Shown here piece by piece: positions 47,730 through 50,621 of a stretch of 64,000 nt of DNA; positions within the stretch are counted from its first letter, which is position 1, and each line of letters starts with the position of its first letter. The notes beneath the pieces were generated by a model. That model was not told the origin of the DNA, did not search any database, and saw nothing but the letters and a program-made list of their open reading frames with translations. The DNA lies in NCBI GenBank assembly GCA_023664265.1, contig JAMPFV010000001.1:98601-162600 (forward strand). The letters run 5' to 3'. The position numbers and the translations under genes were made by a program. Origin of the DNA: Roseburia sp. GTDB taxonomy: Bacteria; Bacillota; Clostridia; Lachnospirales; Lachnospiraceae.

Positions 47730-48680
47730 TTACGCGTTCACCATCAGATTTGCAAAGTACGCGGCGTACAGCGCCAGAAAGAGGATACCGTTCGCGCGGC
47801 TGAGCTTCTTACTCCTGAATACCAAAAGCCACAGGAGAAGCATCACGGCAATCGCCACCAGATTGTCCACGATAAAGGCCGACGTGTAGGCAATCGGCGT
47901 GATCACCGCGGTCGTTCCGAGCACGAAGAGAATGTTAAACAGGTTGGAGCCTACGATATTTCCCACCGCGATGTCGGTCTCCCTCTTCTTGGCCGCGATG
48001 CAGGAGGTCACCAGCTCGGGAAGCGAGGTGCCAAACGCCACAATCGTGAGCCCGATCAGACGCTCCCCCATTCCGAAGGCCTGCGCAATCGCCGTCGCCG
48101 CGTCCACCGTCACGTCGGAGCCGACAATGATCATCGCCGCGCCCAGCAGAATCAGCACCAGGGATTTCCATACCTTGTCCTTTTCGGAATCCTCCTGCCC
48201 GTTCTTCTGCGTCTCGATTTGGCTCTTGCGGGTCAGCCGTATCATATAGACAACGTCGATGATCAACAGCGCCCAGAAGATCACGCCGTCCACCCGCGTG
48301 AGCCGGCCGCCGAGCGCGCCGCACGCAAGCGGCATCACGGACACCACGAAGGTAAACGGGATATCGAAGCGGATACTGCTCGGCTTCACCGCCAGCGGAC
48401 AGATTATCGACGCAAGCCCGAGTATCAGCAGAACGTTCATAATGTTGCTGCCAAGCACGTTGCTGATCGCCAGATCAACGCTGCCCTTTATGGCGGCGCT
48501 GATGCTGATCGCGGCCTCGGGCGCGCTGGTTCCGAACGCCACAATGGTCAGACCGATAACGATATGCGGGATGCCGAACCTGTCCGCAACCTTCGACGCC
48601 CCGTCAACGAACCAGTCCGCCCCCTTCATCAGCAGGATAAATCCGACCGCGAGTAACAAAAACTGTAATGCAATTTCCAT
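47730..48680 (-). CDS. CaCA-family cation antiporter (YrbG-like), riboswitch-controlled
   Basis: A 316-residue protein with about ten membrane helices in two inverted halves. The alpha-repeat motifs are clear: VIGLTIVAFGTSAPEAAISI in the first half and LIGLTIVAFGTSLPELVTSC in the second, each followed by GNVLGSN or GNIVGSN-type loops. The family exchanges Ca2+ for Na+ or H+. A yybP-ykoY type Mn2+ riboswitch in the leader suggests that Mn2+ is a physiological cargo. The ATG follows GGAGGG; an upstream in-frame TTG is less likely. Confidence 0.93.
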   Translation of the reverse strand: MEIALQFLLLAVGFILLMKGADWFVDGASKVADRFGIPHIVIGLTIVAFGTSAPEAAISISAAIKGSVDLAISNVLGSNIMNVLLILGLASIICPLAVKPSSIRFDIPFTFVVSVMPLACGALGGRLTRVDGVIFWALLIIDVVYMIRLTRKSQIETQKNGQEDSEKDKVWKSLVLILLGAAMIIVGSDVTVDAATAIAQAFGMGERLIGLTIVAFGTSLPELVTSCIAAKKRETDIAVGNIVGSNLFNILFVLGTTAVITPIAYTSAFIVDNLVAIAVMLLLWLLVFRSKKLSRANGILFLALYAAYFANLMVNA

Positions 48681-48792
48681 GTTCAATCCCTCCTTTTATT
48701 TACGGAAATGACAATACCGTCATTTTCAGCCGTGCTCTGACAGGCGACATGCTCCGTATGATACCGGATGAAAGCCTCATTTTTCCATAGAG

Positions 48793-48930
48793 TAAAAAAG
48801 ACCTTTGACGCATCACAAGGATAACGCCAAAAGTCTCGTACTTTCACGGATACCTGAAAGATGTGTAACCACGAAAGCCGCTATGCGGCACTCGGGGTAT
48901 GTTGATTACACATAGCTAACTACTCCCTTC
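48793..48930 (-). promoter_or_regulatory. yybP-ykoY (manganese) riboswitch with terminator
   Basis: In the minus-strand leader, GGGAGTAG (48920-48927) and the downstream ATCAACATAC..CGAG block match the conserved halves of the yybP-ykoY aptamer, with a CCGC/GCGG hairpin and a GGTTACACA segment closing the element. It ends with a 13-bp terminator stem (48799-48811/48824-48836, wobbles included) and a U run. The antiporter gene begins 113 nt later. Binding of Mn2+ normally prevents the terminator in this class. Confidence 0.85.
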
Positions 48931-48942
48931 CAACTTAATTAA

Positions 48943-48972
48943 AGTTTAACACAGACTTGTAAGTCTTGTCAA
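48943..48972 (-). promoter_or_regulatory. Riboswitch/antiporter promoter with palindromic spacer
   Basis: Minus strand TTGACA (48967-48972), 18-bp spacer, TAAACT (48943-48948). The spacer holds AGACTT/AAGTCT (48953-48966), a possible repressor site. Confidence 0.65.
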
Positions 48973-49143: not shown

Positions 49144-49186
49144 CCAAATTGTTACAGGCAGACAGCGCATAAGGAAGTGATTGGAT

Positions 49187-49438
49187 ATGAGCATAGCGCC
49201 AACAGATGTTTTCCTTTTATGGCACACCCATGACTTGACCGATGATTTTGGAACACATGAGGAAGCAAAATTAATTGGTGTTTTTTCCTCTGAGGAAAAG
49301 GCAAAAGAGGTAATCGACCACCTAAAAGACAAGGAGGGTTTTAGGGATCAGCCATTAGATTGCTTTGAAATACACAAGTTCAAAGTTGATCGTCCGAGTT
49401 GGGTTGATGGCTTTACTACAGTCCATTGGGCAGAATAA
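49187..49438 (+). CDS. Small conserved protein (DUF7336-like)
   Basis: An 83-residue soluble protein. The opening DVFLLWHTHDL, the SSEEKAKEVIDHL segment and the closing VDGFTTV are the pattern of small DUF7336-type proteins; that name is from memory and tentative. No catalytic residues can be assigned. The ATG follows AAGGAAGTG; an in-frame TTG two codons earlier is possible. It has its own promoter. The 174 bp after it, up to the end of the thymidine kinase gene, contains only a short open frame with no support. Confidence 0.7.
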   Translation: MSIAPTDVFLLWHTHDLTDDFGTHEEAKLIGVFSSEEKAKEVIDHLKDKEGFRDQPLDCFEIHKFKVDRPSWVDGFTTVHWAE

Positions 49439-49612: not shown

Positions 49613-50185
49613 TCATTTTACATTCGGCCCCAGTATTCCCAGCTTGAAATGCTTCCTGCACAGCGCCACATAGCTGTCGTTGGCGCCGAGAAACACCTGC
49701 TCCCCATCCCGTATAATGCCGTCCCGGTTGTATCGGGCGTTGCTTGTCGCTTTCTTCCCGCACCAGCAGACAGTCTTGACCTCATGGATACAATCCGCAA
49801 TCGTTATCAGGCGCTCGCTCCCCGGGAAGAGCTTGTTCTGAAAATCGGCGCGCAGCCCGTAGCACACCACCGGCACCTCCAGAAAGTCCACAATGTCCGA
49901 GAGAAAGTCCACCTGCTCCGCCGTCGCAAACTGCACCTCATCCACGATAATACAATCATACTCCTGAATCGCGTCCTTCGACATCTCCTGAAGCTCATGC
50001 AGCAGCACGCAGTCCATTTCCAGTCCGATGCGGGAGCGGATTTTCCGCACCCCGTCCCGACTGTCCGTCTCCGTCTTGCACAGCAGCGCCTTCTTGCCGA
50101 CCTCCTCATAATTAAAGTGTGTCATCAGGGCGTTTGCCGTCTTTGAGCTGTTCATCGCGCCATAGTAATAATAAAGCTTTGCCAT
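49613..50185 (-). CDS. tdk: Thymidine kinase
   Basis: A 190-residue type II thymidine kinase that phosphorylates thymidine in nucleotide salvage. The P-loop reads GAMNSSKTA, a Ser-for-Gly form common in related Clostridia. DEVQF gives the Walker B/lasso region, GLRADFQNKLFPGS the conserved loop, and CWCGKKA is part of the zinc site; the second Cys pair is less regular. The start giving MAKLYYYYG follows GGAGGAAAAG. An ATG 14 codons upstream would overlap the HEPN gene. It follows the HEPN gene on the same strand. Confidence 0.92.
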   Translation of the reverse strand: MAKLYYYYGAMNSSKTANALMTHFNYEEVGKKALLCKTETDSRDGVRKIRSRIGLEMDCVLLHELQEMSKDAIQEYDCIIVDEVQFATAEQVDFLSDIVDFLEVPVVCYGLRADFQNKLFPGSERLITIADCIHEVKTVCWCGKKATSNARYNRDGIIRDGEQVFLGANDSYVALCRKHFKLGILGPNVK

Positions 50186-50219
50186 CTTTTCCTCCGTTTC
50201 CGGTATTTGAGCCGCAGGC

Positions 50220-50621
50220 TCACTCATTGTCCTTCCCTCTAAGATATTTTTCCGTAGCCTGGTAGAATTTTTCCGCGTTTTCAATCTGTTCTTTCACATC
50301 TTCCCTCGACAGAACATAATAATCGTCATAGTCACTGTCGCTTCGTATGTCAAATGCTTCACTGATAATATCGGACAGTTCAACATCAAATATACCTGAT
50401 TTTATATACTGTTTGCGAAAATATGCGGACACTCCGGAATGCTTTGAAAAGTCCACACCCTCTAACGCCAACACGCTCCTCATACAGTGGAAAATCGCAT
50501 AATAAGAACGGTTAGCCGCTCCTTTGCAGTCGTTATCCGCAACCAATATTCTGGCGGACTTTATACACCGCTCCGCCTGCTCCAAACGGTAATCCGATAG
50601 TTGCCTCCACCTCTTATCCAT
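50220..50621 (-). CDS. HEPN-domain protein, likely toxin of an MNT/HEPN pair
   Basis: A 133-residue helical HEPN protein. NRSYYAIFH near residues 37-45 gives the R-x6-H motif (Arg38, His45) of HEPN ribonucleases. It overlaps the upstream nucleotidyltransferase gene by 8 bp, the arrangement of MNT/HEPN toxin-antitoxin modules, in which HEPN proteins cut RNA and the nucleotidyltransferase adds nucleotides to the HEPN protein. The start giving MDKRWRQ is supported by GGAGGGAG 12 bases upstream. Toxicity is inferred from family and context. Confidence 0.85.
   Translation of the reverse strand: MDKRWRQLSDYRLEQAERCIKSARILVADNDCKGAANRSYYAIFHCMRSVLALEGVDFSKHSGVSAYFRKQYIKSGIFDVELSDIISEAFDIRSDSDYDDYYVLSREDVKEQIENAEKFYQATEKYLRGKDNE

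Follow-up and report, generated by a model that had tools for sequence, protein, structure and literature searches.

A P2-less yybP-ykoY-type leader, probably a manganese riboswitch, ahead of a CaCA antiporter gene in Roseburia

Which ion does a YrbG-type calcium/cation antiporter (CaCA) handle when its gene lies behind a leader that resembles a manganese riboswitch? The question is raised by a locus in a 64-kb stretch of Roseburia DNA (64,000 nucleotides in all; hereafter, the window), in which a first-pass annotation had recognised the halves of a yybP-ykoY aptamer directly upstream of such a gene. The reading that we consider probable is that a P2-less, Mn2+-sensing yybP-ykoY riboswitch, acting as an ON switch, drives a Mn2+-exporting CaCA antiporter. 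BP3410 of B. pertussis is a published case of this kind; the window case is a Firmicute relative whose aptamer has no P2.

The locus and the architecture of its leader

The protein encoded at this locus (Table 1) is a full-length member of the TIGR00367 family of E. coli YrbG, above that model's cut-off (260.6 bits against 179.65); it also matches PF01699 (236.6 bits) but stays under the cut-off of the PRK10734 equivalog model (232 versus 432 bits). Two alpha repeats are present, with the motifs GTSxPE and GSNxxN, and homology to NCX_Mj spans the full protein (E 4e-44). In two same-genus relatives (L002 and L003), the leader is kept ahead of the orthologous gene (82% and 80% identity), with variation at its P3.2 apex. 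The TTGACA and -10 elements of the promoter are likewise kept in both orthologues; the palindrome in the promoter spacer is not. This palindrome, described at first as 14 bp long and as a possible site for a second regulator, really consists of 6-bp arms around a 2-bp centre; with 21 such sites in the window and none in either orthologous promoter, a second regulator is unsupported and we have dropped it. At window 49181-49438 and 49613-50284 there are a DUF7336 gene and the thymidine kinase gene, the former running in the opposite direction and lying between the latter and the riboswitch; in another genome of the genus (G035, locus L180), a CaCA gene directly follows a thymidine-kinase-like frame, with no detectable leader.

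Table 1. Features of the antiporter locus, in window coordinates
Feature	Position	Strand	Basis or remark
YrbG-type CaCA (calcium/cation antiporter) gene, 316 aa	47730..48680	-	PF01699, TIGR00367
Ribosome-binding site AGGAGGG	48688..48694	-	sequence; 7 nt ahead of ATG 48680
Intrinsic terminator	about 48794-48837	-	MFE fold; 5' arm GAGACTTTT... doubles as 3' side of L1 and P1.1
yybP-ykoY-type aptamer, P2-less subtype	48827..48934	-	model R1, 45.8 bits, E=3.1e-9
P4 hairpin	48841..48861	-	folding and R1 alignment
P3/L3/P3.2 arm	48862..48912	-	R1 alignment, pair counts
L3 5' side AACATACC(C)	48903-48895	-	putative Mn2+-contact adenosine equivalent at 48900
5-nt linker AGCTA in place of P2	48913..48917	-	P2-bearing leaders have longer, hairpin-forming stretches
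Loop L1 5' side GGAGTA	48921..48926	-	GGGAGTAG invariant in alignments A2 and A3
P1.1 5' strand GGAAG (switch helix)	48927..48931	-	pairs with 48829-48833; R1 alignment, pair counts in 29 leaders
Promoter TTGACA-18-TAAACT, TG preceding -10	48943..48972	-	10/12 consensus positions
Palindrome AGACTTACAAGTCT	inside promoter spacer	-	absent from orthologous promoters

The GGGAGTAG and ATCAACATAC..CGAG motifs lie where they had been claimed to be, on the minus strand at 48926-48887, with the terminator after them. The leader comprises P1.1 (GGAAG/CUUUU), L1 (GGAGUA/GAGA), P1.2 (GUU/UAC, its third pair open), P3 (UGUGUAAUC/GGUUACACA), L3 (AACAUACC(C)/U) and a variable P3.2, and its fold energy is far below that of shuffled sequences (z = -4.2, 0/200). 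With the RF00080 members of known structure (L. lactis yoaB and X. oryzae yebN), it shares the L1 motif GGGAGUA..GAGA, the L3 motif AACAUAC with its invariant contact A, the helices P1.1, P1.2, P3, P3.2 and P4, a 3' strand of P1.1 held in common with the terminator, and an exporter-type gene downstream; it differs from them in having no P2, in the second pair of P1.2 (U-A, not C-G) and in the C at position 8 of L3. The Mn2+-contacting adenosine of the solved cores lies within ACA48UACU52 in X. oryzae and UCA41AUUC in L. lactis (PMC6754395); by comparison, the A at 48900 would be the equivalent of A48 and A41, respectively. Positions 3-4 of L3 read CA in all 157 leaders that we surveyed in the host's order.

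The two solved structures have a four-way junction that includes P2, whereas the window leader has a three-way junction. We did not treat P2 as defining for yybP-ykoY, because the junction helices differ widely within the order: 38 of the 157 leaders are without P2, and 79 are without P4, most mntP leaders being among the latter. An alignment of 29 leaders contains compensatory changes in P1.1, P1.2, P3, P3.2 and P4, although its summary figures (96.7% of cells paired; covariation 0.51 versus 0.19 in shuffles) lean towards this structure, since the alignment was fitted to it.

As in other yybP-ykoY leaders, P1.1 is a switch helix that competes with the terminator: GAGACUUUU, at the start of the terminator's 5' arm, doubles as the 3' strand of L1 and P1.1. 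This overlap recurs in 19 of 19 leaders examined, including CaCA leaders of several families. The same arrangement is found in L. lactis, where a P1.1 stabilised by Mn2+ blocks termination (PMC11087558), and it is from this match that we infer a Mn2+-ON switch. Without Mn2+, the GAGACUUUU strand would pair forward into the intrinsic terminator, and transcription would end before the antiporter gene. At high Mn2+, the ion would bind between L1 and L3, with the A at 48900 as a contact, and dock the two legs of the aptamer; the docked legs would stabilise P1.1, which would capture the GAGACUUUU strand, so that no terminator forms and the CaCA protein can be produced. This protein would then export Mn2+, and possibly Ca2+ as well.

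Recognition by Rfam and by clade-specific models

The covariance check that the first-pass annotation had proposed, with Rfam model RF00080, did not find the window leader: there is no match even at E<=10, let alone at the 45-bit gathering cut-off, and the orthologous leaders in L002 and L003 are without a match as well. A score below threshold had been named in advance as telling against the riboswitch, and formally that is the outcome; yet for leaders of this order the Rfam threshold is not an adequate guide. RF00080 is above its cut-off in 0 of 60 related genomes, and it gives the GDT1, mntP and OadB-like leaders of the order 20-40 bits (the best, 40.5, is below the 45-bit cut-off), even though the best-scoring of these leaders have clear E-values. 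Since the cut-off excludes the order's mntP and GDT1 leaders as well, the failure of RF00080 is uninformative here.

In its place we used an independent clade-specific model, R1, built on ten leaders that stand before GDT1/UPF0016 genes; its structure was set by hand and is well backed by paired changes. The training set includes four leaders that RF00080 itself recognises with E-values of 1e-7 to 1e-5 (L018, L019, L021 and L017), together with similar leaders; it holds no CaCA leader and no leader of the P2-less form. R1 matches the window leader with 45.8 bits and E=3.1e-9 (E-values of R1, and of the model R2 below, are rough, the calibration having been short), and this is the sole match in the 64 kb. 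In the sources covered, the same model also recovers the mntP leaders and the remaining leaders of CaCA and ATPase genes. The window leader is, through R1, homologous to accepted yybP-ykoY members, and the claim that a yybP-ykoY-type aptamer stands ahead of a YrbG-type CaCA gene holds good on this match and on that to TIGR00367. Taken with the layout of P1.1 and terminator, the sequence comparison supports the window leader as a divergent yybP-ykoY aptamer with the predicted organisation of a transcriptional ON switch.

Other known classes were considered. The Na+-I (DUF1646) and Li+-I (nhaA-I) riboswitches likewise control cation transporters, and the partners of the Na+-I class include oxaloacetate decarboxylase genes (PMC9337991); the window leader has no Rfam match to either class, nor to any other Rfam family, even at E<=10.

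Partner genes of the leaders

With R2, a broad model, leaders are detected in 151 of 392 genomes of the order. Linkage to known Mn2+ exporter families is recurrent. Of 157 leaders, 147 stand ahead of a gene for MntP, GDT1, a P-type ATPase, CaCA or an OadB-like protein. Classified by the protein downstream, with one or two reference sequences for each family in blastp, the 157 divide into P-type ATPase (57), MntP (43), GDT1 (21), CaCA (19), OadB-like (7) and others (10). The P2-less leaders among them precede CaCA, ATPase and OadB genes, and 0 of 38 precede mntP or GDT1, versus 64 of 119 P2-bearing leaders (p = 7e-11 by Fisher's test, for genomes that are not independent). A pattern scan for the P2-less form across the whole collection found 70 stretches, mostly in Lachnospiraceae and some in Treponema, with CaCA (39), OadB (9), ATPase (7) or an unclassified or cut-off gene (15) downstream. 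In a literature search that was not exhaustive, we found no earlier description of this P2-less subtype; the subtype, its breadth and its stand-alone OadB targets are what is new here.

The OadB genes (TIGR01109, the beta subunit of a sodium-translocating decarboxylase) follow yybP-type leaders at L027, L028, L115, L162, L165, L168 and L172, and again at L270, L272, L275, L282, L285, L286, L300, L308 and L331. At the five of these loci that were inspected (L270, L275, L282, L285, L286), no obvious other decarboxylase subunit adjoins, and a stand-alone OadB behind such a leader is possibly a new Mn2+-regulated transporter. A CitMHS/ArsB-like transporter gene, likewise an unexpected partner, lies behind a P2-less leader in Treponema parvum (L293:5274-6581), with similar cases in L297, L315 and L318. 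At L080, L088, L103 and L113, at L066, L085 and L148, at L147 and at L178, the downstream genes, judged by eye, do not look like exporters: they encode a conserved 456-aa protein, possibly of the radical SAM type, ABC transporters, a protein resembling chemoreceptors and a pair resembling HflK/C. At L073 and L078, two yybP-type leaders follow one another on the same strand, and a P-type ATPase gene comes right after the second.

The genome from which the window comes, 94% complete, yielded no MntP, GDT1, TerC or Nramp gene, and R2 detects no second leader there; that MntP, GDT1 and TerC were not found counts in favour of the CaCA protein as a Mn2+ exporter. The genome does hold two genes of the CDF family and two for P-type ATPases, so the CaCA protein need not be its sole Mn2+ exporter.

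Ligand and transported ion

Export of Mn2+ by a CaCA protein has a published precedent. BP3410 of B. pertussis is a CaCA Mn2+ exporter under a yybP-ykoY switch, which Mn induces and Ca does not; it lowers cell Mn and is required for Mn resistance (PMC8546581). V. vulnificus yrbG is also listed under a yybP-ykoY switch (PMC13274385). The BP3410 and window loci share a leader directly ahead of a calcium:cation antiporter gene and transcriptional control, and Mn2+ export has been demonstrated for BP3410; they differ in that BP3410 is betaproteobacterial and its leader is seen by Rfam, with an E-value of 8.5e-15 (PMC8546581). By this analogy, Mn2+ export by the window protein is plausible but, the BP3410 case having been published, not new. 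A further locus points the same way: L182 holds a leader-mntP-CaCA operon with 17 nt between the two genes.

The first-pass annotation went further, in attributing Mn2+ export to a CaCA branch as a whole. The survey of homologues that it had called for did show the leader to recur, on the same strand and 48-250 nt upstream, at 36 of 90 sampled CaCA genes (the best 30 of a protein search plus 60 picked down the list, the latter set leaving out some genes already known to bear leaders, and leaders too diverged for R2 possibly counting as absent). On the CaCA tree, however, the leaders are scattered: their presence requires 27 changes, against 34 in shuffles, and starred branches force 16 or more of these, which makes frequent loss or gain likely, and many close homologues of the window protein are without a leader. 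While export as such is plausible, a marked branch is therefore unsupported, and we rejected a distinct Mn2+ branch of CaCA. Nor can ion preference be read from the ion site. In NCX_Mj numbering, the window protein matches at T50, S51, E54, S77, N81, T209, S210, E213 and S236 and has N in place of D240; leader-bearing and leader-less members of its group have identical ion-site residues. Only in a divergent CaCA group (L076, L142, L155, L159 and L167, one starred clade) does T replace S in the first site motif and A replace S in the second, the GAN motif. Such S51T/S236A-type changes may mark a more Mn2+-specific antiporter; the group is too biased to interpret, because all its members were found through their leaders.

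How, then, do other readings of the locus fare? A chance resemblance to yybP-ykoY, in which the leader is just an attenuator or terminator and holds no aptamer, is hardly credible. The negative result with RF00080 would fit it, but the R1 match, the compensatory changes in 29 leaders, the conservation in orthologues that vary at the P3.2 apex and the recurrent placement upstream of CaCA genes together refute it in practice. It is unlikely, though to be taken more seriously, that the riboswitch genuinely senses Mn2+ while the antiporter mainly moves Ca2+; in that case Mn2+ would be a signal by proxy, or the protein would limit competition between the two ions. An ion site that resembles that of NCX_Mj except at D240, with or without a leader, would suit a Ca2+ mover, and a streptococcal ATPase under a Mn riboswitch is described, in a title cited in PMC11477304, as a Mn2+/Ca2+ transporter; against this stand the effects of BP3410 on cell Mn and Mn resistance, and the co-transcription of a CaCA gene with mntP in L182.

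The remaining alternative, which we regard as quite improbable, is that the P2-less subtype is a ligand-shifted relative of yybP that responds, for example, to Ca2+ or Na+ instead of Mn2+ and controls true Ca2+ or Na+ transporters. To our knowledge, a Ca2+-sensing riboswitch class would be new. The partners of P2-less leaders (CaCA, PMCA-like P-type ATPases and OadB) never include MntP or GDT1, and therefore leave room for another ligand; several genomes (G010, G177, G275, G321 and G418) hold a P2-bearing leader at mntP alongside a P2-less leader at a CaCA or ATPase gene; and the Breaker laboratory suspects that ligand-shifted yybP variants exist (PMC7266159). The binding core speaks against it. 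Contact A of L3 and the L1 motif are unchanged in P2-less leaders, and what chiefly sets their L3 apart from that of P2-bearing mntP and GDT1 leaders is a C in place of U at position 8; the matching position is C in the solved Mn2+ riboswitch of L. lactis, too (PMC6754395). Moreover, CaCA, P-type ATPase and OadB genes occur behind P2-bearing leaders too, and there are published Mn2+ exporters among both CaCA proteins and P-type ATPases. We thus retain Mn2+ as the probable ligand of the P2-less leader and as the probable cargo of the antiporter.

The wider meaning lies in what Rfam does not see. In this order the Mn riboswitch is largely invisible to it, with none of 60 genomes passing, and detection with a clade-specific model widens the known reach of the manganese riboswitch. 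Where single genomes hold both junction types, whether yybP variants have shifted their ligand can be put directly to the test. For the Firmicute YrbG-type CaCA proteins, which are annotated as calcium/sodium exchangers, these leaders provide a regulatory reason to examine Mn2+ export.
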